Source: Elusimicrobiota bacterium (lineage in GTDB: Bacteria; Elusimicrobiota; Elusimicrobia; UBA1565; UBA9628). Taken from it: a DNA stretch of 35,541 nucleotides. How positions within the stretch are numbered: the first letter of the stretch is position 1; every line of letters starts with the position of its first letter. Position numbers and translations under genes: made by a program. This document shows positions 14,857-33,420 of this stretch, piece by piece. Below the pieces are notes generated by a model that was given only the letters and a program-made list of their open reading frames with translations, ran no database searches and was not told the origin of the DNA. Location of the stretch: the NCBI GenBank assembly GCA_026388095.1, contig JAPLKL010000033.1, forward strand, positions 1 through 35,541. Reading direction: 5' to 3'.

Positions 14857-17800
14857 ATGATGCGCAAGGCCATCGCCGTTCTGCTGAGCTTGGCCCTGGT
14901 GGGGCTCTCCGCCGGGCTGGAGCCCTTGCAGGCCATGGCCGCGGAGGTGGCCCCGGTGCGGGTCAACGGCTCCGGCAACGGCGCGCCGGTGGTCCCGAAC
15001 GCGGCGATAGGCGTCCAGCTCCAGCCGGCCGGCCTGAGCGTCTCTCCTTTGTCCGGACTGCAGGGGACCTTGGGCGCTCTTCCCTCAGCCCCCAAGGTGA
15101 CGGTCCAGGGGATGCCGGCTCCCGTCGCCGGGCTTCTCCAGGCCCTGCCCCCGGCCCTGCCGGGGGCTCTCCCTGCCCCGGCGGCCCAGGCGCAGGCTGA
15201 GGCGCCGCAGACCCCTTTCCAGCAGACCATGCAGCGCCTGCAGGCGCCGTCCATGGTTCAGGATTCCCCGGCCCAGGCCGGCAGCGAGACCTCGGCCGAC
15301 GCGGCCAACCGCGACTTCGCCCAGCGCCTGGGCGAGAAGGTCTCCGCGGCGGCGGATCTGGAAGGCCCGCTGGCGGTCCTCGGGCCTTCAGGCTTGGTGC
15401 CCGCCGCGCCAGGGAAGGTCTCCGCTGAGGATGTCCCTGTCTCTTTGCCCGCCCCAGTCCAGCCCGGCAAGCAGGCCAAGTCCCCGGTCTTCCCGGCCGT
15501 GGTCGCCGCGGTCGCGGCCTTGGTCTGGGAGGGCATCCGGGCCGCGGCTTCCTTGACCGGCGGGGCCGCCCTGCACGCCGCGGGCGCGGCTCCGCTCTAC
15601 ACGGTCCTGCAGGCTGCGGCCGGCGTCGCGGGCTTCACGGTGCTGGGCGTCGGCGCGGTCTTCGCCGCCGCAGCGCTGGCGGACATCGGCTCCTACGCCT
15701 ACGGGATGTGGCGGGGCCGGCAGGTCACGGACGCGGATTTCTGGGATTTCGTGCGCGGCGAGGTCATGGTCGGCCGCATGGACGCGGGCGTCGCCGAGAT
15801 GCTGCGGGTCCACCGGCCCGGCGGGATCTCCTGGAACATGGATTTCGGGTTCACGGCCAACGGCAGCATCCATATGCGGCCCGAGCTCGCGGCCACTCCG
15901 TGGCTCTTCCGCCAGGTCCTCAGCCATGAGCTCCGCCATCTGCGCGGCGGCCCCCAGCGCGGGCCCCCGGCCGGCCGCATCCGGGGCCTCTGGCGCCATT
16001 TCGTCTCCGAGCTCTCCGCCCGGGCGGGGGAGTTCAAGGCCGCCAAGCGGATCGCGCGCACCCGCATCCCGGTCCTGGAGCGGGCCCTGCGCCTGGCCCA
16101 GCTCTCCTTGGCCCTGGCCAAGCCCTACGACGTGCTGGTGGTCAACGCGGGCTCCGCGGAACTCGAGAACCCGGCCGTCTACCAGGCCCTCTCGGGCGGC
16201 CAGGCCCGCGTCTCGGTGGTCAAGGGCGCCGACCCCCAGGCGGTCCTGGGCGACGCCAAGAACGCGCGCCGTTTCCAGGCCGTGGTCCTGGACCAGTCCT
16301 CCGTCCTGCTGCCGGAGGAGAAGTCCGCGGATTCCCAGCGCCTGAGCCAGGCCCTGGAGCAGCTCGACGACCTCTTCGTGCTGGCCACGCGCCTGGTGCC
16401 GCAGACCGGGGCCTTCTCCGATAACGCCGCCCACGCCCAGCGCTACCAGAGCCTGGCCGCCGTGGCCCGGGGCCTCGACCCCCGCGACAAGAAGGCGCGG
16501 GACAAGTTCGAGAAGCTGGTGCGCGAGTTCTGGCAGGACATCGCCGCGACGCGCCTGAAGGGCATCAAGGCCGCCGACCTCATGGCCTCCCTTTATGACT
16601 CCATGCCCAACAAGGGCGTCGCCTTCCTGCCTTTCGGGCCCGAGGCCGCGGGCCTGCCGGTCTGGGAGAAGCTCCTGCGCTTCTGGGAGGCCAAGGACGG
16701 GGGCCAGTTCCGCCTCGTGCGCGTGGACCTGGAGAACGGCGGCCACATCCTCATCTTGCGCAAGATCGAGGCGCGGGTGGGGCTCTGGCTGCGGCCGCAG
16801 AAGGGCTTCCTCGCCGTCACCATCCCGGACGCGGACGCCTCCAGCGAGGCCCGCGAGTCGGCGCGCACGGCGCTCTCCGCCGCGGGGTTCTCCGACCAGC
16901 TCGCCAAGTTCGACGAGCTGGGAGTCGAGATCCGCCACGTCTTCGGCGCGGACGTGGGCCGCCAGGAGATCTACGTGACCGTGCCGCGGCGCAACGCCGG
17001 CGCGATCCGGCGCTTCGTCTCCGCCGCCGCCATGGACGTGGGAGCCTCGCAGGCCAACTTCGAGCCGCACCTCTTCGAGTCCGCGGAGCTGCACAAGGTC
17101 AAGCCGGTCTGGCAGGCGGGCATCACGGGCGCCGACGGCACCATCATGTGGATCGACACCGGGGCGGACAAGACCCACCCGGACTTCGAGGGGCGCCTGG
17201 ACGTGGTGGACATGGTCAACGAGGGCCCGGAGGATTGGATCGGGCACGGCACCCACGTGGCGGGGATCTCGATCTCGGGGGGGGCTGCCTACACCGGCAT
17301 GGCCAAGGCCGCCCACGGCATCATGGCCAAGGTCTTCTCCCGCGAGAACCCCGGCGCCTCGGACGGCGAGATCATGGGCGCGGCGGCCATCGGCATGCAG
17401 AAGGGCGTCGACGTCATCAACCTGAGCCTGGGCAGCAAGGGCTCCTCCAGCGACAACCTGGCCACCTTCTTCTCCCAGCTCACGCACCAGAAGAACGCCA
17501 ACGGGGAGTACCCCTTCGTGGCGGCCAGCGCGGGCAACTCCGGGCCCTTCGACCAGACCCTGAGCCAGCCCGCGGCGGGCGAGGACGTCTTCGCCACCGC
17601 GGCCGCGGCCGTGGGCGAGGATGACCACGCCCCGGAGATATCCTTCTTCAGCTCGGTCGGGCCGGACGTGGACAAGCGTTACGCGGTCAAGCGCGTGCGC
17701 CTCAAGCCCGACGCCACGACCAAGGGCGGCAACGTCACCACGGAGCCGGGCTCTCCCAACGTCTATCGCCTGGGCGTCTACTCCGCCAAGTCCAAGGACA

Positions 17801-20800
17801 TGCCCAAGAATCCCTCGGACACGGCGGACGGCAAGCACACGGCCATGTCCGGGACCTCCATGGCCTCGCCCATGCTGGCTGGCATCGCGCTGCTGGTCCG
17901 GCTGGCGCTGCGCGTGACCGGGGCCGAGACTCCCTTCGTCAAGGAGCACCTGCCCCTGGTCCTCAAGGCCGTGATCATGCGCACCGCCGACGACATGCGG
18001 GTGCCGGTCTGGTTCCAGGGCGCGGGCTTCGTCAACGCCTGGGCCGCCGTGAAGCTCGTGGCCGAGTCGGTGGGCTATGTCCTGGGAAACCGGGCGGCGC
18101 GGCTCTGGGCCACGGTCAAGGGCGCCCAGGCCCCACCGTCCGCCGACGCCTTCGAGTGGGTCGCGCGCTATGAGAAGGTCCTGGCGCTCGAGGACAAGGT
18201 CTACAGCGCCGCCGAGCTGGCCAAGACCGAGGCCAAGGCCCGCTTCGACGACGCCAGCCAGGGCGACGCGGAGGACGGCGAGACCGCGGTCGACTCCCGC
18301 AAAGCCTCGGGCGACGCCGTCGCGGCCGAGGTGAGCGCCAAATTCAACTCGGCCCGGGCCGAGGTCCTCGCCGACATCCTGGCCGCGCTTCAGGACCCGG
18401 TCTGGCTGGTGCGGCGGCAGGCGGCCATGGCGCTGCTGAACCTCAAGACCCCCGAGGCGGTCATGCCTCTGGCCGAGGCGGCCCTGCACGACGCGGACGG
18501 CCGCGTGCGGCAGATGGCTTTCCTGGCCCTGGCGGAGAACACCAGCCACGCCGCGGATGTCATGCTGCAGAAGGCCTCGCAGAGCCCGCTCTGGGACGTG
18601 GCGGTCTATGCGGCTTTCGCTTTGGCCCGGCACGGCGACCGGTCCGCGGTCGAGCGCATCAGCGCGCAACTGGCCAGCGCCGACAAGGCCGTGCGCTTCT
18701 CCGCGACGTGGCTCCTGGGCCAGCTGGGGGACAAGGCCTCGGCGGTCGAGGCCGAGGCCCTCGCAGCCTCGGTCAAGAACGCCTCCGAGCGGGGCAACAT
18801 CCGCCACGTGGCCGCCGCGGCCCTCTCCAACATGGCCGCGGACCAGCCGGCCGCGGTCAGCGACCCCGTCATCAAGGACCTCCTGGAGGCCTCCGGGCCC
18901 CAGAACCTCGCCTTGACCCGCACCGTGGCCAAGTTCTTCCCGATCGCCTTGCGCAACAAGGCCCTGGTGGCCCGGTTGCGGGCCGAGCCGCTCAGATCCG
19001 TGGTGGCCGATTTCGTGCTCAGGAACCGCGCCGCGGTGGGACGGCCGGGCGCGCTGGGCGACCTGGTCAGCCTCCTGGCGCGGGTGGTCAACATCCCCTT
19101 GGACATGCCCACGCCGGTGCCGGACCCCTCCGGCGCGGGCGTGGCCGGCGTGGATCCCGCCCTCGGAGACCTCGACGTCATCGTCGGCCTGCCTGAGGGC
19201 CGGGAGCTCTCCGCGTACCGCGGCAGCGCCGGAGCGGCCGAGTCTCTGGCCGAGGCGGGCCTGGCCCAGGACCTTCTGGGCAGGTTCAGCGCCAGCTTCC
19301 AGGCCGGCCTGCCCGTCTCGCGGGCCCTCTGGCTGAGCGTCCCGGCTCACAAGCTCTTCGCCCTGAGCCTGGAGCTGCGGCACGCGGGCTACTCCGTGAG
19401 CCTGTCCCAGCCCGAGCACAGCCTTTCCCGGACCGCGGCCTCCGAGGGCCTACCCTTGGTCGGCGCCCTGACGCTCGAACTCGGCGACGGCGCTCCGGCC
19501 ATCCCGCCCGGCGCGGACCTCGCCTTCGTGCGCGTCACGGCGGCGAAGGCCGTCTCCGAGGCCAAGGTCATGGCCGCTTTGGAGGCCATCCGTGCCCAGG
19601 CCGGCGACACTCTGCGCAAGCCCGTGGTGGTCTCGGTGAGCCTGGGCAGCCAGGCGGCTGCGGGCTCCGGGGCTCTGGCCGGGCTCATCGACCGCCTGCT
19701 GCTCGACAACGTGGGCGTGGTCCTGCCGGCGGGCAACGAAGGTCCGGCCGAAGGCACCGTCTCGGCGCTGGCCAAGGACAGCCTCGCCGTGGTCGTGGCC
19801 GCCGCCGGCAAGACCGAGGGCCTGGAGAGCTACTCCGCGCGAGGCTCGGCACAGGCTCCGGTCATCTCATGGGCCGACCTGGTCGATGACCTGGGCTCGG
19901 CCCTGCCCAGCTTGCAGGCGGCCGCGGTCTCGGCCGCGCGCGCCATCCTGGGTGAGGACCCGTCGCTGCCGGCCCAGTCGCTCATGCCCGCCGCGGTGGG
20001 GACCGGCGCGGCCGCCGAGAACACCGCGATCAAGCTCGCCCGCATGGCCCGCCGCATGGCCGAGACCTATTCGGAGCATGGCTCCACGCTGCCTTCCGGC
20101 TGGTTCTTCTATCTGGCCGACATCGTCCGGCGGACTTTGAGCCCGCTGCCCGGCCGCGGCTCTTTCGAGGCGGGCGGCGGGGTCTTCGACCATCCGGAGA
20201 AAGCGCTGGAGCTGCTGGAGACGCGGCTCCTCGACCCGGTGGCCGCGGAGCAGGAGGCGCTGTCCCTGTCCCGGGCGGCTCGGGCGCGGTACCATGCGAA
20301 CCGGGCGGCCGGCACCCCGGCCCAGGCCGCGCACAAGGCGGTCTTCAGCGCCGCCCAGGCGGTAGCCGGCCAGATCATGGCCCAGCCGCGGCTCATCGCC
20401 GCCGCCGCCGAACTGACCCGGCGCCTGGCCGGCCGCGACTTCCGGCCCGCGAGCGTCGTCCCTCAGGACGGCCTGGCCTACGTCCGGCAGCTCCGGGCGG
20501 TCCTGGCCGCGGGCAGGCAGACCGCCGGCGGCCCCATCAATCCCTTCGTCTTCCGCAAGACCTCGGGCGGCATGGTGGCGGCCCGGGCCGCGGGGCTGGA
20601 GGGCTTCCTCTACTCCAAGCTCGAGCTCTCCCGCGCCGGGACCTTGGACCTCCGCGAGCTCGACAACTATTTCCGCTACCTCGCAGACCTGCTGGCGGGG
20701 GACTCGTGGACCAAGGGCTTGCGCCGCGACCTCGATACGATCCGGACTTCCGACGCGGCCGCGGCCGAGAAGAACCGGCTCCTCGACGCGCGCCTGGCCG

Positions 20801-21828
20801 CCGCGGTCAGAGAGTATCAGACCGAGCTGCGGGCCGCGGACGCCTCCAACTGGTTCCGGGGCGCGGGCCTCTACGAGCTTTCAGCGAAGGACTACGGCTT
20901 CGCCGCGACCGAGAAGAAGTTCTTCGAACTCCTCGACGAGAGCGAGTTGCGGCGCATCCAGGCGTCAGCCCACGTGGACACGCTCCTGCTCAAGACCAGC
21001 TTCTCGGGAAGCTCCGAAGAGGCCTTCCGGCGGCTGGTGCGGCGGGTCCATTCCTTGGGCCTGAAGATCGCCGTGGAGTGGACGGGTGCGGAGCCTTTCG
21101 ACGACGTCCGGGCCGCGGACCTGGGCGTGGACGCCGTGCACCGGGGCGGGAGCTACTTTGTCGGCGGCCAGGAGCTGGGCCGGGACCGGGAGGCGCTGCC
21201 CGAGGCGCTGGCCAGCCGGGACGCGGACCGCGTCCGCGCCGCCCTGCGGGACGCGGCGTTCTCAGCCTGGCAGCGCGGCGGTCCGGCGGACATGAGCGTC
21301 ATCTCCTTGCGGCGCCTGGGGCGGCTCGGAAGGGGCTCCCTTTTGATGGCGATGCTGCTGCGGCCCGTGGTCCTCAAGACCGAGACCGATGAGGATTCGC
21401 TGCCCGCCGGGCCGGTCGCCGACCTCTTGCGCGAGTTCCTGCGCTTCGCGTCCGCCCGGTCTGCGGAGTACCGGGACCTCCTGGCGCGGGGGGCCATGGA
21501 GGTGCTCGACACCGATCCGGGCACGCCGGTCGTGGCCTACACCCTCAGCGCGGCTTCCGGGGCCAGGCGCAAGACCGTGCTCGCCGCGGCCAACTTGGCG
21601 GATCGGCGGGCCCACGGCTTGTTCCGGTTCAAGGCGGCGCAGTCGGGTTTGGACGAGTTCGCGCCGGCCGCCGACAAGACCTACACCCTGCGCGACCTGG
21701 CCAACGCTGACGCCGACGGGCAACCCGTGACCTACACCCGGTCCGGCCAGGAACTCCTGGAGAAGGGGCTCTACATCGAGCTCGACGGCGGCGGGGTGCA
21801 CCTCTTCGAGGTCGCGGAAGCTCCCTGA
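14857..21828 (+). CDS. 2323-aa chimera: leader, HExxH membrane module, subtilase, HEAT, pseudo-subtilase, GH13-like tail
   Basis: A giant exported protein. Residues 1-30 are a signal peptide and 30-170 an Ala/Pro/Leu leader. Residues 210-290 hold hydrophobic segments followed by a candidate zincin motif HELRH (H357-H361) with E385 as possible third ligand. An alpha/beta region (about 425-690) leads into an S8 subtilase (about 755-1070) with the full set: Asp767 (MWIDTGAD), His797 (GHGTHVAG), oxyanion Asn894 (SAGNSGP) and Ser1001 (GTSMASP). HEAT-like repeats follow (about 1165-1370). A second subtilase-like core (about 1440-1670) keeps VVVSVSLGS and the AGNEGP Asn (N1627) but shows no Asp/His/Ser triad. 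Residues about 1995-2323 resemble a shortened GH13 barrel (GAGLYELSAKDYG, VDTLLLK, HSLGLKIAVEW) plus a beta-sandwich ending. Proteolysis in or outside the periplasm is likely. The other modules' activities are inferred. Confidence 0.88.
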   Translation: MMRKAIAVLLSLALVGLSAGLEPLQAMAAEVAPVRVNGSGNGAPVVPNAAIGVQLQPAGLSVSPLSGLQGTLGALPSAPKVTVQGMPAPVAGLLQALPPALPGALPAPAAQAQAEAPQTPFQQTMQRLQAPSMVQDSPAQAGSETSADAANRDFAQRLGEKVSAAADLEGPLAVLGPSGLVPAAPGKVSAEDVPVSLPAPVQPGKQAKSPVFPAVVAAVAALVWEGIRAAASLTGGAALHAAGAAPLYTVLQAAAGVAGFTVLGVGAVFAAAALADIGSYAYGMWRGRQVTDADFWDFVRGEVMVGRMDAGVAEMLRVHRPGGISWNMDFGFTANGSIHMRPELAATPWLFRQVLSHELRHLRGGPQRGPPAGRIRGLWRHFVSELSARAGEFKAAKRIARTRIPVLERALRLAQLSLALAKPYDVLVVNAGSAELENPAVYQALSGGQARVSVVKGADPQAVLGDAKNARRFQAVVLDQSSVLLPEEKSADSQRLSQALEQLDDLFVLATRLVPQTGAFSDNAAHAQRYQSLAAVARGLDPRDKKARDKFEKLVREFWQDIAATRLKGIKAADLMASLYDSMPNKGVAFLPFGPEAAGLPVWEKLLRFWEAKDGGQFRLVRVDLENGGHILILRKIEARVGLWLRPQKGFLAVTIPDADASSEARESARTALSAAGFSDQLAKFDELGVEIRHVFGADVGRQEIYVTVPRRNAGAIRRFVSAAAMDVGASQANFEPHLFESAELHKVKPVWQAGITGADGTIMWIDTGADKTHPDFEGRLDVVDMVNEGPEDWIGHGTHVAGISISGGAAYTGMAKAAHGIMAKVFSRENPGASDGEIMGAAAIGMQKGVDVINLSLGSKGSSSDNLATFFSQLTHQKNANGEYPFVAASAGNSGPFDQTLSQPAAGEDVFATAAAAVGEDDHAPEISFFSSVGPDVDKRYAVKRVRLKPDATTKGGNVTTEPGSPNVYRLGVYSAKSKDMPKNPSDTADGKHTAMSGTSMASPMLAGIALLVRLALRVTGAETPFVKEHLPLVLKAVIMRTADDMRVPVWFQGAGFVNAWAAVKLVAESVGYVLGNRAARLWATVKGAQAPPSADAFEWVARYEKVLALEDKVYSAAELAKTEAKARFDDASQGDAEDGETAVDSRKASGDAVAAEVSAKFNSARAEVLADILAALQDPVWLVRRQAAMALLNLKTPEAVMPLAEAALHDADGRVRQMAFLALAENTSHAADVMLQKASQSPLWDVAVYAAFALARHGDRSAVERISAQLASADKAVRFSATWLLGQLGDKASAVEAEALAASVKNASERGNIRHVAAAALSNMAADQPAAVSDPVIKDLLEASGPQNLALTRTVAKFFPIALRNKALVARLRAEPLRSVVADFVLRNRAAVGRPGALGDLVSLLARVVNIPLDMPTPVPDPSGAGVAGVDPALGDLDVIVGLPEGRELSAYRGSAGAAESLAEAGLAQDLLGRFSASFQAGLPVSRALWLSVPAHKLFALSLELRHAGYSVSLSQPEHSLSRTAASEGLPLVGALTLELGDGAPAIPPGADLAFVRVTAAKAVSEAKVMAALEAIRAQAGDTLRKPVVVSVSLGSQAAAGSGALAGLIDRLLLDNVGVVLPAGNEGPAEGTVSALAKDSLAVVVAAAGKTEGLESYSARGSAQAPVISWADLVDDLGSALPSLQAAAVSAARAILGEDPSLPAQSLMPAAVGTGAAAENTAIKLARMARRMAETYSEHGSTLPSGWFFYLADIVRRTLSPLPGRGSFEAGGGVFDHPEKALELLETRLLDPVAAEQEALSLSRAARARYHANRAAGTPAQAAHKAVFSAAQAVAGQIMAQPRLIAAAAELTRRLAGRDFRPASVVPQDGLAYVRQLRAVLAAGRQTAGGPINPFVFRKTSGGMVAARAAGLEGFLYSKLELSRAGTLDLRELDNYFRYLADLLAGDSWTKGLRRDLDTIRTSDAAAAEKNRLLDARLAAAVREYQTELRAADASNWFRGAGLYELSAKDYGFAATEKKFFELLDESELRRIQASAHVDTLLLKTSFSGSSEEAFRRLVRRVHSLGLKIAVEWTGAEPFDDVRAADLGVDAVHRGGSYFVGGQELGRDREALPEALASRDADRVRAALRDAAFSAWQRGGPADMSVISLRRLGRLGRGSLLMAMLLRPVVLKTETDEDSLPAGPVADLLREFLRFASARSAEYRDLLARGAMEVLDTDPGTPVVAYTLSAASGARRKTVLAAANLADRRAHGLFRFKAAQSGLDEFAPAADKTYTLRDLANADADGQPVTYTRSGQELLEKGLYIELDGGGVHLFEVAEAP

Positions 21829-21864: not shown

Positions 21865-22233
21865 TCACTCCCCGCTCTTGACCTTCCGCTGTATCTCGTC
21901 GTAGTAGCGGTCCGCCTCCTCCAAGCTCGCGAAGTACTGCTCTTCGGGCACGATCTGGGCGATCTCGAAGACCCTCTGGACCGGCGGCTGCATGTTGCTG
22001 ACCATGAATACGCCCGACGCGAGGTCCTGCCTGGCCTTGAAGATCACGCGCAAGCCCATGCTGCTGATGTACTCCAGTCGGGCCAGGTCCAGGACCAAGC
22101 CCCGGACCGGCGCACCCCTGAGCGTGGCGAGCTTCTGCTCCAGCTGGGGCGCGGTCGCGGTGTCCAGCCTGCCCGTCAAAGACAGTTCGAAGAAACAGGG
22201 CTTGCGCTCCCGCATGACGATCTGAAGTGGCAT
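21865..22233 (-). CDS. STAS-domain anti-sigma factor antagonist
   Basis: A 122-aa stand-alone STAS protein of the SpoIIAA/RsbV type, acting by binding and releasing an anti-sigma kinase. The start at 22233 is fixed by an AGGAGG 7 nt upstream; a longer frame exists but lacks a site. The characteristic strand-loop-helix reads LVLDLARLEYISSMGLRVIF; Ser-Ser before Met-Gly-Leu marks the usual phosphoacceptor position. The C terminus extends into a charged helix (EEADRYYDEIQRKVKSGE). No anti-sigma kinase, phosphatase or sigma factor is nearby, so its partner is elsewhere. It is convergent with the giant protease gene. Confidence 0.92.
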   Translation of the reverse strand: MPLQIVMRERKPCFFELSLTGRLDTATAPQLEQKLATLRGAPVRGLVLDLARLEYISSMGLRVIFKARQDLASGVFMVSNMQPPVQRVFEIAQIVPEEQYFASLEEADRYYDEIQRKVKSGE

Positions 22234-22334
22234 CTTGGCATCCTCCTGGCGCAGATGTCCATCGCCCGGGCCGTGGATTCCAACACGGGAGATCCCATCC
22301 GCCTTTCGACTAAAGCCGTTATCTCTGGTCCGGC

Positions 22335-22896: not shown

Positions 22897-25800
22897 ATGT
22901 CCCAAAGCAACAGCCGAAACGGTCTCAGGAAAGCGCTGAGCGCGCTCATCATCAACGCCCTACTGTTCACCCAGCAGGGCTTCGCGCTCCAGGCCTTCGC
23001 CCAGACCAAGGTCGAGGCGGTCACAGCCGCCCCCGGGACCGGTTCCGTCGGCTCCGTCGGCACATCCTTGGGCTCGGCCTCTTCCCTCTCCGGCGCCAAC
23101 CTCGCCCCTGCCGCAATCCTGACTCTGTCCCAGCCCGGCCTCAGCGCCGTGCCCACGGTCATCCCCCAGGTCGCGAACCCCGCTCCGATCCTGAGCGCCG
23201 GGCCGGCTCCCGTCGCCGCGCCGGCGGCCTCCCCCGTCCCGGCCAAGGCGGCGACATCGGCGCGCCTGACCAAGGTCGCTGAGAGCCTCCAGCCCGAGCT
23301 CAAGACTCTGGCCGGCCCCGAGGCCCAGGCCGACCAGGCCCAAGGCGCGGGCGAGCGCGTCATGGCCAAGGCCCTCGGCCAGAGTACCCAGGACCTGCCC
23401 GAGCTGGCCGAGCCCGCCTCCGCCGCCGGGACTTCGTACTCCGGCGCCAAGGTCCACGCCGCTCTGCGCAAAGGCGCGCAAGGCCCGGCAGCCCGACAGG
23501 GCCGGGACGGCTCCTGGTGGAAAGACCCCGCCTCCCAGCATGTCGCGGTCACCGTCCCGCTCTACGCCCTGCGCCGCGCCGAGGGCGACCCGGGCATCGG
23601 CAAGTTCACGGACTTCGGCGCCTACTACCGCGACGTGCTCGCCGCGCAAGGCGTCGACACCATCCATCTCCTGCCCCATTTCGCGGTGCTCGACGAGAGC
23701 CCCTACGCGCCGGTGAGCCTCTACGCCTTGAACGAGAGCAACGTGGACTGGGCGGTCGTCGACGAGGTCAAAGGTGACCCGGCCCTGCTGGCCAAGCTCG
23801 CGGTGGCGGACCAGGCCGACCGGCAGGCGGTCAACTACAAGGCCCTCTGGAGCCGCGAGGAAGCGGTGGCGCAGGAGGCCTACCGCAATTTCCAGCGCGA
23901 CCACATGTCGCGCGGCACCTCCCGGTCCAAGGACTATCTGGCCTTCCTCAAGGAGAACGCCTACTGGCTCAACGACTACGCGGAGTTCATGACTTTGTCC
24001 CGGATCATCGGCAAGCCGTCCTTGCAGTGGACCAAGAACGAAGAGACCGGCGCCCGGCACGATCCGCGCTTCATCCTGCTCAAGAACACCCATTTCTATG
24101 CCCAATGGAACGCCTTCCGGCAGTTCGGCGACGCCATGGACACGATCCACCAGGCGGGCGGCCACGTGCTCTTCGACATCCCCATGTTCCGCGCCAAGAA
24201 CTCGGTGGACTCCTGGAAGCATCCCGAGTACTTCAAGGACCTCAAGACCCGCAACCCGGGGATCAAGAACCAGTGGATCAACGAGGACTGGCTGGACCTG
24301 GCCCTGTGGGATTGGACCAGGCTCAAGGGCGAGGGCTACCGGCCCATGCTCGAGCCGTTCCGCCACTGGCTCAACCTGGGCTTCGACGGCGCGCGGGTGG
24401 ACGCTCTGCATTTCGCCTACAATTTCGGCAACGGCCAACTGGCCAGCGGCGACGAGCCGGGAGACGATTACGTCTCCGCTTTGGGTGAGGTGCTCAAGGC
24501 CGGCGACGCCTTCCCCCTGGCCGAGGCTTTCGAGGGCAAGGCCGACAACGCGCAGCGCTACGGCTTCGTCACGGTGTACGGGGATTGGAAGAAGCTGAGC
24601 TCGCACGACGACCCCCGCAGCGAGGGCTTCATGGCGCGCCTGCTGGACCTGAGCCGGCAGGGCGGCTCCGGCAAGAACGGCCGATTCGTGGGCTACACCT
24701 TGGGCGACGAGTGGAACGACCCGGTCCCGGTGAAGGTGGTCAAGGACGGCAATTCCTACTGGCGCTACCGCATCCCCTTGCCTGCGGACCCCGACTACAA
24801 GAGCCGGGCGCGCGCCGACAACCGCGGACAGATGGGGGGCTGGAAGGCCATGCAGGAAGGCAACGTCTGGAAGGCCGCAGAATCGCTCTGGACCGCCTTC
24901 AAGGCCGCGGGCGACACGTTCGTGAAGCACTTCAACGGCTCCGTGCAGATCTGGGCCGCGAGCCTGGACTGGTTCCAAGAGGAATGGGGCCGCGACACCT
25001 TCATCTCCTTGCCGGGCCTGCTGCTCTCCACCGGCCGCTCCGCCGAGGCCAAGGAGAACATGCGCAACTTCGCCAGGTACGAGCACAACGGGCTGATCCC
25101 GAACCGCATCTGGGACGCTTCGCGCTGGTCGCCGGCCAAGCCCGACGGGGTGGAGTACAACACGGTGGACGGCTCCATGTGGTTCGTGCAGGCGGTCAAG
25201 AAGTACGCGGAGACCACCCAGGACGCCGCTTTCGTCGCGGAGATGCTGCCGGTCCTGCGGCGCGTGATGGAGCGCTACGCTTCGGGCACGGGCTACGACC
25301 GCTACGGCCGCTTCAACCGGATCTATATGGACACGGACGGGCTGATCGTGAGCCCGGCCCAGGCCACCTGGATGGACGCCGACCCGGAGGGACGCGACCA
25401 GCCCGTGACACCGCGCAACGGCAAGGCCGTGGAGATCAACGCCCTTTGGTACGCGAACCTGCGCTTCCTGGCCCGGCTGGAGCGCCAAGCCGGCCGCGAC
25501 GCCGCGGCCCGGGCCTTGGACTCCCGCGCGGACCTGGCCAAGAAGTCCTTCAACGAGAAATTCTGGTTCGCCACCGAGGACAACAAGAAGGCCTGGGGCG
25601 GCTCGGGCGGGGCTCTGGCCGACGTGGTGGAAGGCGACCCGCACGGGCAGGCGATCCGGCCGAACATGCTCTTCGCGGTGAGCGCCGGCGAGGACCTGCT
25701 CAGCCCGGAGCGGCAGGCGGCCGTGGTGCAGGCCGCGACCCGGGATTTGTTGACGCCTTACGGGATGCGCACCCTGTCTTACCGCGACAGCGGCTATCAC

Positions 25801-26211
25801 GCGACCTACGACACCTCGAAGCCTCCGCTCGAGAAGGACCAGGCCTACCACCAGGGCACGGTGTGGCCTTGGCTGCTGGGCTCCTACGTGGACGCCTTGG
25901 CGCGCGTGCGCCGGGCCCAGGGCTGGGACGAAGGCCGCATCCGCGAAGAAGTCGGCGGGATCATGACTCCCTTGGCCGAGTTCCTGGTGAGCCGGCCCGA
26001 GGGGTCATTGCCCGAGGTCTTCGACGGCGGCCGGCCGCAGGAAGCCCTGCAGCGCTTCTCCTTGGCCGACCCGCTGGGCCTGCGCGACGTCATCGTCAAG
26101 ATCCTGCGCGGCCAGAACCGGGGCGGCACGCGCGCGCAGGCCTGGAGCGTGGCCGAGGCCATCCGCGTGCTGGCGGAGTACGGCCTGGCCCCCATCGCCC
26201 CGCGGCCGTAG
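22897..26211 (+). CDS. Secreted GH77 4-alpha-glucanotransferase fused to glycogen-debranching (GDE_C) domain
   Basis: A 1104-aa exported enzyme for alpha-glucans. I start at 22897, where the signal peptide begins (MSQSNSRNGLRKALSALIIN); upstream codons add an unlikely hydrophilic stretch. A leader runs to about residue 195. Residues about 225-590 resemble GH77/MalQ: GIGKFTDFGAYYRDVLAAQG, SPYAPVSLYALN, YWLNDYAEFM, GHVLFDIPMF, and GARVDALHF with D502 as probable nucleophile. E543 (LAEAFEG) is a candidate acid/base and HDD about 570-572 the third acidic site. Residues about 680-1095 match amylo-alpha-1,6-glucosidase: EEWGRDTFISLPGLLLSTGR, EYNTVDGSMWFV, GKAVEINALWY and AYHQGTVWPWLLGSYVDA. The pairing would give transfer plus 1,6-hydrolysis in one chain, as in eukaryotic debranching enzyme, though that uses a GH13 domain. 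Confidence 0.9.
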   Translation: MSQSNSRNGLRKALSALIINALLFTQQGFALQAFAQTKVEAVTAAPGTGSVGSVGTSLGSASSLSGANLAPAAILTLSQPGLSAVPTVIPQVANPAPILSAGPAPVAAPAASPVPAKAATSARLTKVAESLQPELKTLAGPEAQADQAQGAGERVMAKALGQSTQDLPELAEPASAAGTSYSGAKVHAALRKGAQGPAARQGRDGSWWKDPASQHVAVTVPLYALRRAEGDPGIGKFTDFGAYYRDVLAAQGVDTIHLLPHFAVLDESPYAPVSLYALNESNVDWAVVDEVKGDPALLAKLAVADQADRQAVNYKALWSREEAVAQEAYRNFQRDHMSRGTSRSKDYLAFLKENAYWLNDYAEFMTLSRIIGKPSLQWTKNEETGARHDPRFILLKNTHFYAQWNAFRQFGDAMDTIHQAGGHVLFDIPMFRAKNSVDSWKHPEYFKDLKTRNPGIKNQWINEDWLDLALWDWTRLKGEGYRPMLEPFRHWLNLGFDGARVDALHFAYNFGNGQLASGDEPGDDYVSALGEVLKAGDAFPLAEAFEGKADNAQRYGFVTVYGDWKKLSSHDDPRSEGFMARLLDLSRQGGSGKNGRFVGYTLGDEWNDPVPVKVVKDGNSYWRYRIPLPADPDYKSRARADNRGQMGGWKAMQEGNVWKAAESLWTAFKAAGDTFVKHFNGSVQIWAASLDWFQEEWGRDTFISLPGLLLSTGRSAEAKENMRNFARYEHNGLIPNRIWDASRWSPAKPDGVEYNTVDGSMWFVQAVKKYAETTQDAAFVAEMLPVLRRVMERYASGTGYDRYGRFNRIYMDTDGLIVSPAQATWMDADPEGRDQPVTPRNGKAVEINALWYANLRFLARLERQAGRDAAARALDSRADLAKKSFNEKFWFATEDNKKAWGGSGGALADVVEGDPHGQAIRPNMLFAVSAGEDLLSPERQAAVVQAATRDLLTPYGMRTLSYRDSGYHATYDTSKPPLEKDQAYHQGTVWPWLLGSYVDALARVRRAQGWDEGRIREEVGGIMTPLAEFLVSRPEGSLPEVFDGGRPQEALQRFSLADPLGLRDVIVKILRGQNRGGTRAQAWSVAEAIRVLAEYGLAPIAPRP

Positions 26212-28376: not shown

Positions 28377-28788
28377 GCGGAGACTGCTCCTCGTCGAAGA
28401 CGACGCCGATGCCTGCAGCTTCATCAAGTACGTGCTGGAGCAGGAGGAGTTCGACGTCCAGGTGGCGCGCACCGCGGGGGAGGCCCGCGCGGCTCTGGCG
28501 GGCAGCCCTGCGGACCTGGTCGTGATAGACCGCGGGCTGCCGGACGGCGACGGCATCGAGCTCTGCCGGGAGATGCGGGAGCGGCCCAACTTGGCGCGCA
28601 CCCGCGTCATGTTCCTGACCGCGAGCAAGACCCCCGCCGACATCGAGGACGGCTTCGCCGCGGGCGCCGACGACTACCTGAGCAAGCCCTTCAGCTTCAT
28701 CGAGTTCTTGGCCCGCATCAAGGCCCTGCTGCGGCGCGACCCCGGCTCCGGCGAGCTCCTGACCGAGCCCGACGGCGCGGCTTCCTGA
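28375..28788 (+). CDS. Stand-alone response-regulator receiver domain (OmpR-like)
   Basis: A 137-aa receiver without a DNA-binding domain. Acidic residues are E8-D10 (LLLVEDDAD), the phosphoacceptor is D52 (LVVIDRGLPDGDG), the switch Thr is in MFLTASK, and the Lys is in LSKPFSFIEFLARIKALLRR. The last stretch is the alpha5 helix typical of OmpR-family receivers. After it come only about 17 residues. The 3' end overlaps the end of aroQ on the other strand by 71 bp. There is no Shine-Dalgarno; a perfect palindrome covers the start codon, so expression is probably controlled there. Confidence 0.93.
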   Translation: MRRLLLVEDDADACSFIKYVLEQEEFDVQVARTAGEARAALAGSPADLVVIDRGLPDGDGIELCREMRERPNLARTRVMFLTASKTPADIEDGFAAGADDYLSKPFSFIEFLARIKALLRRDPGSGELLTEPDGAAS

Positions 28789-29215
28789 GACCCGGGCCGG
28801 CCAGCCGGTCGATGGCTTCCAGATAGGAGCCGATCCCTTTGCCGCTGATCGCGGCTAGGCAGGCCGGGGCGATGACCGAGCGGCGGCGGAAGGGCTCGCG
28901 TCTCTTGACGTCCGTCAGATGGACTTCGATGGTGGCGACGCCGATGGCGGCCACCGCGTCGCGCAGAGCGTAGGAGTAGTGCGCATAGGCGCCCGGGTTG
29001 AAGACCACGCCTTGGGCCCAGCGGCGGTTCTTGTGCAGCAGGTCGATCAAAGTCCCCTCGCAGTTGGACTGGTAGATGCGCAAGGTCGCTCTGCGTTTCC
29101 TGGCGTAGGCGCGCAGATGGGCGTTGAGCTGGGCCAAGGTCATGGTGCCGTAGACCTTGGGCTCGCGCTCTCCCAGCAGGTTCAGGTTGGGGCCGTGCAG
29201 GACCAATATCCTCAT
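28718..29215 (-). CDS. aroQ: 3-dehydroquinate dehydratase, type II
   Basis: A 165-aa type II dehydroquinase, which dehydrates 3-dehydroquinate to 3-dehydroshikimate. Family strings are clear: HGPNLNLLGEREPKVYG (with the catalytic Tyr), YQSNCEGTLIDLLH, FNPGAYAHYSYALRDA, and IEVHLTDVKRREPFRRRS with the catalytic His and binding Arg. The start at 29215 follows AGGAGG and overlaps the aroB stop as ATGA. The family is usually about 145 aa. Here an extra Arg-rich tail of about 25 residues (from LRKPRRRARSG) is encoded over the end of the convergent receiver gene, so the usual stop may have been lost. It is the last gene of the operon. Confidence 0.95.
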   Translation of the reverse strand: MRILVLHGPNLNLLGEREPKVYGTMTLAQLNAHLRAYARKRRATLRIYQSNCEGTLIDLLHKNRRWAQGVVFNPGAYAHYSYALRDAVAAIGVATIEVHLTDVKRREPFRRRSVIAPACLAAISGKGIGSYLEAIDRLAGPGLRKPRRRARSGARRSRGRAAAGP

Positions 29216-30201
29216 CTGAGTCCTCCTAGGATGAAGCGCACCGCCTCGCGCACTTCGCGCTCCGGCACGCGGTCGGTGACGTAGGGCCGGCCCACGGACT
29301 TGAGCAGCACGAAGCGTAGCCGCCCCCGGCGGGCCTTCTTGTCGCGGCGCAGGATCGCCATCACCGCCGATTCGCTCAGGCGCAGCCGGGGCACGGGGAA
29401 GGACTCGAGGCAGTCGGCCAGGCGCGAGAGCCGCAGCGCGGCGCGCATGCCGCAGACCACGGCCTCGCCGTGGCGCAGCCGGCCCGCGGCCGCCGTCTCC
29501 AGGGCGTGGCCGATCGTGTGCCCGAAATTGAGGACCTCGCGTATGCCCTTGGTCTCGCGCTCGTCCTTGGCGACGACGCGGAACTTGAGCGCCGCGCAAC
29601 GCCTGACCACCGGCTCGAGTCCGCGGGCCGGCCTCAGCAGCGCCGGGTCGCAGATCAGGCCGTATTTGAGGACCTCTCCGAGGCCCGAGGCCAGCTCCCG
29701 CAGGGGCAAGGTGTCCAGGAAGTCCGTGTCGCAGACCACGGCCCGGGGCTGGTGGAAGGCTCCCACGAGGTTCTTGCCCTCGGCCAGGTCGATGGCGGTC
29801 TTGCCGCCGATGCCGGCGTCCACCTGGCCCACGAGGGTCGTGGGCATGCCGATCCAGGCTATGCCGCGCATGTAGACCGCGGCGGCAAAGCCCGCAGCGT
29901 CGGTGACCGAGCCTCCGCCCAGGGCCAGGAGGACCGAGTCCCGGCCCAGGCCTTGGCGCAGCATGTGTTTCATGAGCTTTGCGACCGCGTCCCAGGTCTT
30001 GGCCTTTTCGCCTCCGGGCAGGAGGTGCAGGCTGGTCCGGGCCCCGGCGCGGCGCAGGGCCTTGGCGACCGGCGCACCGTGCAGGCGCCAGGCCTTGGGC
30101 TCGGAGACCAGCATGAGGCGTGTGCGGGGGGGGAGCCCCTTGAGCCAGCGCCGGGGCTGCTGGGCCAGACCGCGTCCGACGAGGATCATGGGGCTCATCA
30201 T
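29212..30201 (-). CDS. aroB: 3-dehydroquinate synthase
   Basis: A 329-aa enzyme converting DAHP to 3-dehydroquinate with NAD and a divalent metal. The NAD-binding GGGSVTDAAGF, the signature MPTTLVGQVDAGIGGKTAID and the metal ligands Glu (ASGLGEVLKYG) and His (NFGHTIGHALE, RHGEAV) are all present. The start at 30201 gives an ATGA overlap with the aroK stop; a second Met follows directly. It is slightly shorter than the usual 340-365 aa, mostly through a brief N terminus. It also overlaps aroQ by 4 nt. Confidence 0.95.
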   Translation of the reverse strand: MMSPMILVGRGLAQQPRRWLKGLPPRTRLMLVSEPKAWRLHGAPVAKALRRAGARTSLHLLPGGEKAKTWDAVAKLMKHMLRQGLGRDSVLLALGGGSVTDAAGFAAAVYMRGIAWIGMPTTLVGQVDAGIGGKTAIDLAEGKNLVGAFHQPRAVVCDTDFLDTLPLRELASGLGEVLKYGLICDPALLRPARGLEPVVRRCAALKFRVVAKDERETKGIREVLNFGHTIGHALETAAAGRLRHGEAVVCGMRAALRLSRLADCLESFPVPRLRLSESAVMAILRRDKKARRGRLRFVLLKSVGRPYVTDRVPEREVREAVRFILGGLR

Positions 30202-30701
30202 AGCAAACCCCCTATCTGCGCGGCGGCCTGGGCCGGGGTCCGACGAGTCGTCGAGACCACCCGGTCCGCGTCCCGGTAAAGCCCTCGTCTCCGGGCCAGA
30301 AGACGGCGCAGTCTCTCCCGCCGCCCCGCTCCTGCGCCCAAGAGGGGACGCTTGCCGTCGTCCGGGCGCAGGCGCGACCACAGCGCCGCCTCAGAGCAGC
30401 TCAGGCTCACCAGGAGGCCGGTCTTGCGGACCAGGAGCCGGTTGGAGCGCCGCAGGAGCGTGCCGCCGCCCAGAGCCACCACCGCCGCCTTGCGCGCCGC
30501 GGCGCGGCGCAGCGCGGCCGACTCCAGGCGGCGGAATGATCGCTCTCCCCTCTGGAAGAGCTCGCGGATGGGCCTTCCCGCGGCGCGCTCGACTTCGCTG
30601 TCGAGGTCCACGAAGGGCCGCCGCAGCCTGCGGGCGAGGCTGCGGCCGACCGAGGTCTTGCCCGCGCCCATGAAGCCGGTCAGGTAGATGAGGTCAGGCA
30701 T
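30198..30701 (-). CDS. aroK: Shikimate kinase
   Basis: A 167-aa P-loop kinase phosphorylating shikimate at the 3-hydroxyl. Walker A is GFMGAGKTS at residues 9-17. The shikimate-binding region has DLDSEVERAAGRPIRELFQRGERSFRRLE. GGG in VALGGGTLL and the lid Arg in KRPLL are present. Length is normal for AroK. It lies 9 nt after the aroC stop and overlaps aroB by 4 nt, with no separate promoter. The aroK/aroL choice follows the operon context. Confidence 0.95.
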   Translation of the reverse strand: MPDLIYLTGFMGAGKTSVGRSLARRLRRPFVDLDSEVERAAGRPIRELFQRGERSFRRLESAALRRAAARKAAVVALGGGTLLRRSNRLLVRKTGLLVSLSCSEAALWSRLRPDDGKRPLLGAGAGRRERLRRLLARRRGLYRDADRVVSTTRRTPAQAAAQIGGLL

Positions 30702-30710
30702 TTCCGGGGG

Positions 30711-31823
30711 TCACTTCCTGAGCGACCGCAGGCGCGGCAGGATCTCCCGCATGGAGTCGCCGCCTGTCTTATCGAGCAAGGCGTCGGCCAGGACCAAGGC
30801 GACCAAGGCCTCGGAGATGACGGCCGCCGCGGGCACGGCGCACACGTCCGAGCGCAGCACCGGCGCCGGGGCGGCCCGGCCGGTCCGGAGGTCCACGGAA
30901 GGCAGGGGCTTCATCAAGGTGGGGAGGGGCTTCATGGCCGCGCTCAGGAGCAGGGGCTCGCCCGTGGTCATGCCCCCGTCTATGCCTCCGGAGCGGTTGC
31001 TGCGATAGGCGGCCCGGCCCGCCTTCCAGTAGTAGGGGTCCAGAGCCCGGGAACCGGGGAGGGCCGCGGCCTCGAAGCCCAGGCCCACGGCCACGGCCTT
31101 GATGCCGTTGAGAGCCATGAGCGCCGCGGCCAGGCGCCCGTCGAGACGCCGGTCCCAATGGGCATAGCTGCCCAAACCCGGGGGCAGGCCGTCGGCCCAG
31201 ACCTCGAAGACGCCGCCCAGGGTGTCGCCGGCGCGGCCGGCGCGCTCGATGGCGCCGACCATGCGGCGCGAGGCCGTCGGGTCCGTGGCGCGCACCGGCG
31301 AGGCATCGGCCCGGGAATTGAGCCGCGAGACCGGGCCGGGCCGGGATGAGCGGTCGGCCTCCGGGCCGATGGACAGGACGCGGCTGGCCACGCAGATGCC
31401 GCAGGCTTCCAGGAAGCGCTTGGCCGCCGCGCCCAAGGCCGTGCGGGCCGCTGTCTCCCGCGCGCTGGCTCGCTCCATGACGTCGCGCAGGTCCGTGAAG
31501 CCGTACTTGCGGGCGCCTGCGAGGTCGGCATGTCCGGGCCGCGGGACCGTGAGGACGGGCTCCCGTCCGCCGCCGTGGTCGGAGTTGGGTATGCGTACCG
31601 CCAGGGGAGAGCCCAAGGTGCGGCCGCGCCGCACTCCGCCGAGCAGCTCCACGCGGTCGGCCTCGAGACCTTGGCGGGAACTGCGGCCGCAGCCGAGCTT
31701 GCGGCGGGCCAGTTCGGCCTGGATGTCCGCGGCCGAGAGCTCCAGCCCCGCGGGCAGGCCTTCGAGTATGCCCACCAGAGCGGGGCCGTGGGATTCTCCT
31801 GCGGTGAGGAATCTCAGGGGCAT
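30711..31823 (-). CDS. aroC: Chorismate synthase
   Basis: A 370-aa FMN-dependent enzyme converting EPSP to chorismate. The N-terminal signature TAGESHGPALVGILEGLPAG, the middle RPGHADLAGARKYG and the long motif DLRDVMERASARETAAR are diagnostic. The C terminus carries MTTGEPLLLSAAMKPLPT. Length is normal. The start overlaps the aroE stop by 10 nt, so translation is coupled. Its substrate-forming partner aroA (EPSP synthase) is not in the window. Confidence 0.96.
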   Translation of the reverse strand: MPLRFLTAGESHGPALVGILEGLPAGLELSAADIQAELARRKLGCGRSSRQGLEADRVELLGGVRRGRTLGSPLAVRIPNSDHGGGREPVLTVPRPGHADLAGARKYGFTDLRDVMERASARETAARTALGAAAKRFLEACGICVASRVLSIGPEADRSSRPGPVSRLNSRADASPVRATDPTASRRMVGAIERAGRAGDTLGGVFEVWADGLPPGLGSYAHWDRRLDGRLAAALMALNGIKAVAVGLGFEAAALPGSRALDPYYWKAGRAAYRSNRSGGIDGGMTTGEPLLLSAAMKPLPTLMKPLPSVDLRTGRAAPAPVLRSDVCAVPAAAVISEALVALVLADALLDKTGGDSMREILPRLRSLRK

Positions 31824-32644
31824 GATAGTCTCTCCAGGAGGCGGCCTTTCAGGGCGGCGCGCCGGGGGGCGCCCAGGGATCCGAACCAGAACTCCCAGGA
31901 GCGCAGGGCTTGGGACACGAGCATGCCGCTGCCTCCCAGCACGCTGGCGCCCAGGCGCCGGGCCTGGCGCTGGAAAGCGGTGCGGCGGCCGTAGACCAGG
32001 TCCAAGGCCAGGCCGCAGCCCGGCCAGTCGCCAGGAGCGGGCGAGCGGTCAGGGAACCCGGCCATGCCCAAGGGTGTGGCGTTGACGGCCAGGTCCGCGG
32101 CTCCGGCCCGGCCCGCGGCGAAGACGGTGCCCGGGAAGCTCGCGGCCAGCGCGCGGGCCAAGGCCCGGGCCGCTTCGGGCCGGCGCGCGGCGATGGTCAC
32201 GCGGCGGGCGCGCAGGCGGCCCAAAGCGCAGAGCACGGCCCGGGCCGCGCCGCCCGCGCCGAAGACCAGGGCATCGCGGCCCGCGGCCGAGAACCCCGAC
32301 TCCCGCAAGGCGTCCGCGAAGCCCGCGGCGTCCGTATTGTGGCCGATGAGGCGGCCTTGGCTGCAGCGCAGCGCGTTGACCGCGCCGGCCAGCCGGGCTT
32401 CCGGCGTGAGCGCGTCGAGCAGGGGAACGATGGCCACCTTGTGGGGCACCGTCACGTTGCCGCCCAGCATGCCGGACCAGCGCATGAGCTCCACGGCGCA
32501 GGCCAGCCTCTCGGGGAGGACGTCGCAGGCGCGGTAGAGCACCTTGCGCCGGGTCAGACCGCCGAGGCCGGCCATGAGGCGCGGAGACATGGAATGCGCG
32601 ACGGGGTGTCCCAGCAGGCAGAGCTTTACGGGTTCTTTGGGCAT
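31814..32644 (-). CDS. aroE: Shikimate dehydrogenase
   Basis: A 276-aa enzyme reducing 3-dehydroshikimate to shikimate with NADPH. Substrate-site Ser residues are in GHPVAHSMSPRLM, the catalytic Lys in NVTVPHK, and the Asp in GHNTDAAGFADAL. The dinucleotide fold shows VFGAGGAARAVLCAL, and the ending has GSGMLVSQALRSWEFW. I start at 32644 (MPKEPVKLCLLG); an in-frame ATG 9 codons upstream (MSGLGRTSF) is also possible and neither has a strong ribosome site. It is the first gene of the aro operon; the promoter must lie in 32645-32809. Confidence 0.95.
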   Translation of the reverse strand: MPKEPVKLCLLGHPVAHSMSPRLMAGLGGLTRRKVLYRACDVLPERLACAVELMRWSGMLGGNVTVPHKVAIVPLLDALTPEARLAGAVNALRCSQGRLIGHNTDAAGFADALRESGFSAAGRDALVFGAGGAARAVLCALGRLRARRVTIAARRPEAARALARALAASFPGTVFAAGRAGAADLAVNATPLGMAGFPDRSPAPGDWPGCGLALDLVYGRRTAFQRQARRLGASVLGGSGMLVSQALRSWEFWFGSLGAPRRAALKGRLLERLSCP

Positions 32645-32752
32645 GAACGAGGTCCGGCCAAGTCCCGACATTCTACCAATAACGAAGGGGGGTGGCCGGG
32701 CATTTCGCCTGAAAGCCATGTGACTGCCTGACAAATCCTGACAAAACACCTC

Positions 32753-32781
32753 TTGTGGAGAACGTCGGGTGCATCCATAAT
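32753..32781 (+). promoter_or_regulatory. Promoter of the TPR protein gene
   Basis: TTGTGG (32753-32758) and CATAAT (32776-32781) are 17 nt apart, with a GGAG ribosome site downstream (32801-32804). The direct repeat CCTGACAAA/TCCTGACAAAA just upstream (about 32727-32747) could be a regulator site shared with divergent aroE. Confidence 0.55.
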
Positions 32782-32809
32782 CTAAGTGCGGACCCTTGCT
32801 GGAGCCAGA

Positions 32810-33334
32810 ATGGATAGATGCCGATCGGCCTGCTTTTTGGCCGTTCTGACGATTTTCGCTTTTGAGCCTGGCGGCGCCCGCGCTTCCGCAGGGGCGGCGC
32901 CCCAGGCCAAGCGGTCTGCCGGGCTCTACCAGAAGGGGGCGCGGGCCTACGCTCAAGGGGACCTCGACGCTGCCTTGGCCGCCTACCGGGAGGTCCTGAA
33001 AGAAGACCCTGAAGACCCCACGGCCGAGCTCGCCGTCGGGCGCATCGAGATGGAGCTGGCGGCCCGGCGAGCGGCTGCCGCGAGAGCCGCTGCGGCCGGG
33101 GACCTGCATCGGCAAGCCGCGGACCTCGACAGCCTCGTCCTTGACCACCTCTACGACTGGTTCTTCTTCGAACGCACGCTGGGAGATGCCCAAGCCGACT
33201 TGGGGACCCTGCAAGCCCGCAGCGGGATGGTCGCCCAGTTCATGGCGGAGCGCAGGTTGGCGCTCAGCCGGGCCGGCCGATTCCCCAAGGAGCGGGAGCT
33301 GCGGGCTTTGGTCCGCAGGCTGCCTACCAGTTGA
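32810..33334 (+). CDS. Exported TPR-containing protein
   Basis: A 174-aa protein. The signal peptide is MDRCRSACFLAVLTIFAFEPGGARA. Residues about 40-80 are a TPR-like helix pair (SAGLYQKGARAYAQGDLDAALAAYREVLKEDPEDPTAELAVG). An Ala/Arg-rich helix follows, then a helical domain with HLYDWFFFERTLGDAQADLGTL. The start at 32810 follows GGAG; a GTG at 32786 would precede the signal peptide without a site. TPR proteins of this size usually serve as envelope assembly partners; no specific role is shown. Residues after the TPR pair match no family I know. Confidence 0.85.
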   Translation: MDRCRSACFLAVLTIFAFEPGGARASAGAAPQAKRSAGLYQKGARAYAQGDLDAALAAYREVLKEDPEDPTAELAVGRIEMELAARRAAAARAAAAGDLHRQAADLDSLVLDHLYDWFFFERTLGDAQADLGTLQARSGMVAQFMAERRLALSRAGRFPKERELRALVRRLPTS

Positions 33335-33408
33335 GCCGGCACGCCTCATAGGACTTTTGTCTCCGCCTTCTGGGTCTTCCGCTCCTCGTAAAACAGCGTT
33401 CCCAGCCG

Positions 33409-33414
33409 CATACT
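33409..33414 (+). promoter_or_regulatory. -10-like box of the metzincin gene, leaderless arrangement
   Basis: CATACT ends 6 nt before the ATG at 33421, the same layout as the outermost gene at the other end of the window (CATACT, 7 nt). No clear -35 is visible. Confidence 0.4.
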
Positions 33415-33420
33415 TTGGGT

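Follow-up and report, generated by a model that had tools for sequence, protein, structure and literature searches.

The window analysed here, a stretch of 35,541 nucleotides from an Elusimicrobiota bacterium, contains a gene for which a sequence-only reading had proposed a secreted bifunctional debranching enzyme, with a MalQ-like GH77 domain and a GDE_C domain joined in one chain behind a signal peptide. The locus thus raises the questions of whether both halves belong to the families named, whether the protein leaves the cytoplasm, and whether the two activities would be coupled on a branched alpha-glucan.

Gene structure and predicted export

The gene is a real open reading frame, from the ATG at 22897 to the stop codon at 26209-26211, encoding 1104 amino acids (Table 1). 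A same-genus homologue supports this start, as its signal sequence opens at the identical place, and the numbering of R500, D502, E543, H570 and D571 fits it. The N-terminus, MSQSNSRNGLRKALSALIINALLFTQQGFALQAFA, has the basic n-region, hydrophobic core and AFA site of a Sec/SPI-type signal, and residues 13-24 are the most hydrophobic 12-mer in the entire protein. Judged by these N-terminal features alone, the protein reads as putatively Sec-exported. The linker that follows falls outside the stretch alignable in most relatives, and no carbohydrate-binding module was found in the 1104 residues.

Table 1. Positions of the debranching gene, its partner and their features in the window
Feature	Position	Strand	Basis or location
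CDS: signal, linker, GH77 and GH133 (GDE_C), 1104 aa	22897..26211	+	ORF, Pfam
Predicted Sec signal peptide, residues 1-35, cleavage after AFA	22897..23001	+	sequence; core residues 13-24; same-genus homologue
Ala/Pro-rich low-complexity linker, residues 36-204 (about 170 residues)	23002..23508	+	sequence
GH77-type (beta/alpha) domain, residues 205-654	23509..24858	+	Pfam, alignment, model fold
R500/D502	24394-24402	+	GH77 domain
E543	24523-24525	+	GH77 domain
D571	24607-24609	+	GH77 domain
GH133 amylo-alpha-1,6-glucosidase (GDE_C) domain, residues 657-1104	24865..26208	+	Pfam, model fold, alignment
D827	25375-25377	+	GDE_C domain
E1040	26014-26016	+	GDE_C domain
Exported 2323-aa partner protein, signal-like N-terminus	14857..21828	+	preceding gene
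HExxH motif, residues 357-361	15925-15939	+	partner
Peptidase_S8, triad intact	17149-18018	+	partner
HEAT repeats	about 18316-18534	+	partner
Second weak S8-like stretch	19486-19854	+	partner
Predicted GH13 remnant	20377..21825	+	homology to intact GH13 chains
STAS-domain gene between partner and debranching gene	21868..22236	-	this genome

It might be argued instead that the enzyme debranches glycogen inside the cell, its hydrophobic N-terminal stretch serving as an anchor or reflecting a wrongly read start. The host genome has a separate MalQ, GlgP and many GH13 genes, and no other GDE_C was found in it at E<=0.001, so that an intracellular pathway would have this protein as its only GDE_C candidate. 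However, hydrophobic signal-like N-termini are also present in relatives encoded by separate genes, and in fused relatives they precede an extracellular-type subtilase; we consider an intracellular role quite improbable. As the host possesses its own MalQ, GlgP and GH13 genes, it seems likelier that the exported enzyme supplements them than that it replaces them. Elsewhere in the window, genes of aromatic amino acid synthesis (dehydroquinase II, DHQ synthase, chorismate synthase and shikimate dehydrogenase) occupy 28718-33430 on the minus strand.

The two catalytic halves

The first catalytic half matches Pfam Glyco_hydro_77 (E 3.6e-32, 112 bits against a cut-off of 25) over residues 220-502 and profile positions 1-279 of 465, and no GH13 family is among the Pfam matches of the protein. 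Because this match ends near the nucleophile, the remainder of the domain was tested by profile and structure. A profile made from 17 relatives and searched against the PDB gave GH77 at 7e-23 and the best GH13 at 0.013, and on this result together with the Pfam match an assignment of the first half to GH13 was ruled out. In the AlphaFold model of the fusion (pLDDT 84.6, pTM 0.83), residues 2-450 of the model align with residues 1-498 of Thermus aquaticus amylomaltase 1cwy (Z 29.2, rmsd 3.1 A, 406 aligned); the modelled GH77 fold is therefore complete from end to end. In a relative from Endomicrobia (L043), the Pfam GH77 profile itself is matched from 1 to 460.

The catalytic residues named by the sequence-only reading, D502, E543 and an HDD about 571, are present as numbered and lie in the catalytic columns of MalQ: R500, D502, E543 and D571 share columns with the R-x-D, E and HD of standalone MalQ wherever the MalQ rows reach, and D502 aligns with D293 of the Thermus amylomaltase. 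D502, E543 and D571 are invariant in the alignment of relatives (A2). Nearly every fused relative, down to about 35% identity, retains the catalytic residues of both halves, and two distant relatives (L042 and L044) have lost some of them. After the nucleophile, the barrel is shorter than in GH77, with reduced E-to-D spacing, and contains the GH13-like motifs GFDGxRxDA and HDDPR (here GFDGARVDALHF and HDDPR), a point on which the earlier reading needs correction. Given this deviant second part of the barrel, the GH77 half may hydrolyse its substrate or transfer with a different specificity.

The second half matches Pfam GDE_C over residues 681-1047 (E 2e-92, 310 bits against a cut-off of 21), so that the profile searches place both families in one chain and in the proposed order, far above their cut-offs. 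Residues 453-900 of the model superpose on the amylo-alpha-1,6-glucosidase of T. gammatolerans (7vma) with Z 27.4, and the top Foldseek match of the model is the glycogen debranching enzyme (GDE) of C. glabrata. D827 aligns with D1241 of that enzyme, which we take to be the catalytic acid, and E1040 is conserved in the family.

Distribution and origin of the fusion

A survey of 295 genomes from the phylum turned up full-length fused homologues in the genus, family and order to which the window belongs, as well as in one further family of its class. A scan of genome contigs identified carriers in Elusimicrobia/Elusimicrobiota, Endomicrobia, Omnitrophota and Goldiibacteriota; none of the 28 confirmed loci lies beyond Elusimicrobiota, Omnitrophota and Goldiibacteriota, in a scan based on two short family motifs that divergent fusions could escape. 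The possibility that the fusion is peculiar to this genome was thus rejected, as Elusimicrobiota and Omnitrophota have further cases and a single Goldiibacteriota genome has one. In Omnitrophota, 43 of 285 genomes match at 1e-30 and seven or so have both clade halves in one frame; such frames reach 8,679, 12,255 and 18,962 codons, and a further GDE_C match lies inside a frame of 38,661 codons. In Goldiibacteriota, the module occurs in one of the 45 genomes around the member (L082), with its halves in reversed order.

The Omnitrophota frames of 8,679 to 38,661 codons (L108, L109, L110, L111; G392:C8, G350:C5, G351:C7, G354:C6, G453:C8) carry GDE_C either alone or with GH77, and those scanned also carry domains that are usually intracellular, including GGDEF, sigma-70 region 4, glycosyltransferases, methyltransferase and HAD. 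Two Endomicrobia chains (L041 and L043) combine a phosphorylase/GT-like stretch with GH77 and GDE_C, possibly bringing an entire glycogen-breakdown line into one protein. A ChaN/Tiki-like domain precedes the GDE_C-bearing chain in L040, by a weak Pfam match, and in L044, by similar wording.

Separate trees were obtained for each half, with FastTree local supports and outgroups drawn almost wholly from the same phyla. The 33 fused GH77 domains constitute a single clade (0.93) that excludes 21 standalone MalQ of the same phyla, and 34 fused GDE_C domains form one clade with six unfused derivatives (1.0), apart from standalone GDE; the C. glabrata GDE_C sits outside this clade. The GDE_C domains of two Omnitrophota loci, L111 and L115, group with ordinary GDE enzymes, and these two may have been fused independently; in L115, from Omnitrophota, glucan water dikinase Ig-like and CBM53-like stretches precede GH77-GDE_C. 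With single clades for the fused GH77 domains and for nearly all of the fused GDE_C domains, the trees point to one old fusion followed by losses of GH77, with perhaps one or two additional fusions. The window protein is one member of an old family spread across candidate phyla, which corrects the sequence-only reading.

The subtilase-HEAT partner and the putative GH13 remnant

The partner gene is separated from the debranching gene by a 1.07 kb gap that holds the opposite-strand STAS gene. In six relatives (L033-L038), the S8-HEAT chain and GH77-GDE_C form one frame of 2,644-2,868 codons, and in two others (G163 and G165) the two genes adjoin at a distance of about 70-100 bp, the gap in G163 being about 100 bp. 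Among 44 genomes of the family, the S8-HEAT gene is present in 19 of 19 with the module versus 9 of 25 without it (Fisher 5e-6, uncorrected for kinship). The HExxH motif of the partner is conserved and lies outside every Pfam family match; the region around it is possibly a second protease domain. A role of the subtilase partner in processing or scaffolding may be envisaged.

Processing would be central if the fused relatives were polyproteins from which the S8 or HExxH part frees the module, with the two-gene state, as in the window, bypassing the cutting. The S8 triad is mostly intact in module-bearing genomes, the HExxH is kept, and both fused and split states exist, all of which fit such maturation; however, no cleavage site was identified, and big fusions without known processing are common in these phyla. 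We consider this explanation rather unlikely.

In five genomes (G097, G198, G209, G257 and G277), the S8-HEAT chain ends in a GH13-like domain, and the three intact GH13 domains tested (L168, L169 and L173) score with PF00128. Both GH13 flanks align with the C-terminus of the window partner, while about 205 amino acids including the catalytic motifs are missing; by this homology, the C-terminal piece is what is left of a GH13 amylase domain. Profile comparison gave no relation between this C-terminus and the GH77 domain. An identification by fold was set aside, since the model of this part has a pLDDT of 54, and the homology to the GH13 chains settled the matter.

The GH77-GDE_C module is absent from all five genomes with S8-HEAT-GH13 chains. 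Most simply, GH77-GDE_C would have displaced a GH13 enzyme associated with the exported protease-HEAT chain, or taken over its role. Such a history also argues for alpha-glucan as the substrate, whatever the two domains are called. A bolder version, which we regard as doubtful, makes the module a cassette against extracellular alpha-glucan that was passed as a unit, in both Elusimicrobiota and Omnitrophota, between exported protease-HEAT chains and giant proteins, replacing GH13 amylases. If so, the giant frames would act as multi-enzyme glucan machines directed at detritus or at other cells.

Proposed function

Taken as a whole, the evidence is best explained by a predicted exported bifunctional indirect debranching enzyme in which GH77 replaces the GH13-type transferase, a reading to which we assign a probability of roughly 0.68. 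The GH77 half, a 4-alpha-glucanotransferase, would detach a short malto-oligosaccharide stub from a branched alpha-glucan and pass it to another chain, which would expose a single alpha-1,6-linked glucose for hydrolysis by the GH133 half. The substrate is presumably a starch- or glycogen-like alpha-glucan, external or periplasmic, and both the activity and the coupling of the two sites are likewise predicted. The eukaryotic glycogen debranching enzyme follows the same reaction scheme with a GH13-type transferase. The convergent exported enzyme proposed from the sequence thus remains the best reading, with one chain, a predicted export signal and both catalytic sets in place; the subtilase-HEAT context and the giant frames of relatives had escaped the first reading.

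The same activities could also be present with no coupling between them, the two glucan enzymes being merely tethered: GH77 would disproportionate maltodextrins, GH133 would trim alpha-1,6-glucose, and the fusion would secure their co-export. This account overlaps the preferred one in all except coupling. The reversed domain order in the Goldiibacteriota member L082, together with the retention of GDE_C without GH77 in the derived L022 and L023, argues that a fixed geometry is not essential, whereas the GH77-GDE_C order is kept in nearly the whole clade. We give simple tethering somewhat less than an even chance.

Comparison with known systems

Among the closest parallels is the eukaryotic GDE (C. 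glabrata 5d06, human 8zeq), which likewise has a transferase and an amylo-1,6-glucosidase in one chain and in the same order, with a homologous GDE_C whose catalytic Asp is kept in the window protein. The eukaryotic transferase is of the GH13 type, whereas that of the window protein is GH77 and accompanied by an export signal. Neither hGDE_N nor the central domain of the eukaryotic enzyme was found in the window protein, and hDGE_amylase was not among its matches. With TIGR01531 it scores 105.8 bits against a cut-off of 1399.55, the best stretch being confined to the profile's C-terminal portion; the protein is not a eukaryotic GDE and resembles it only in how it would work.

With MalQ/DPE1, the bacterial and plant GH77 amylomaltases, the protein shares the full-length fold and the catalytic triad; it differs in being fused and, by prediction, exported, in belonging to a separate clade, and in its shorter, GH13-like part past the nucleophile. 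With the archaeal and bacterial GDE_N-GDE_C amylo-alpha-1,6-glucosidases (TIGR01561, 7vma) it shares GDE_C, while GH77 occupies the place of GDE_N, which was not found in the window protein; the gde_arch model TIGR01561 gives 217.7 bits, below its cut-off of 364.15, and covers profile positions 260-567 only.

To our knowledge, there is no case of indirect debranching outside the cytoplasm. Among open-licence papers, we found no description of a GH77-GH133 fusion in bacteria, and in a review of the alpha-glucan enzymes of prokaryotes the passages found deal with GH133 by itself. Giant genes are known in Omnitrophota and Elusimicrobia (PMC12057145, citing the West-Roberts 2023 preprint; Seymour 2023, PMC10066038), and the GH77-GDE_C module is unnamed in the available parts of these two papers. 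The module of the relatives sits in such frames, whereas in the window it is encoded by a compact gene of its own. GH77 and GDE_C are both known families. If the proposed function is correct, it would represent a second, independent build of the one-chain indirect debranching type, in which GH77 stands in for GH13 and which is apparently non-cytoplasmic. It would also provide a concrete and testable candidate enzymatic function for one part of the giant proteins found in Omnitrophota and relatives, in a protein of only 1,104 residues that is compact enough to express.
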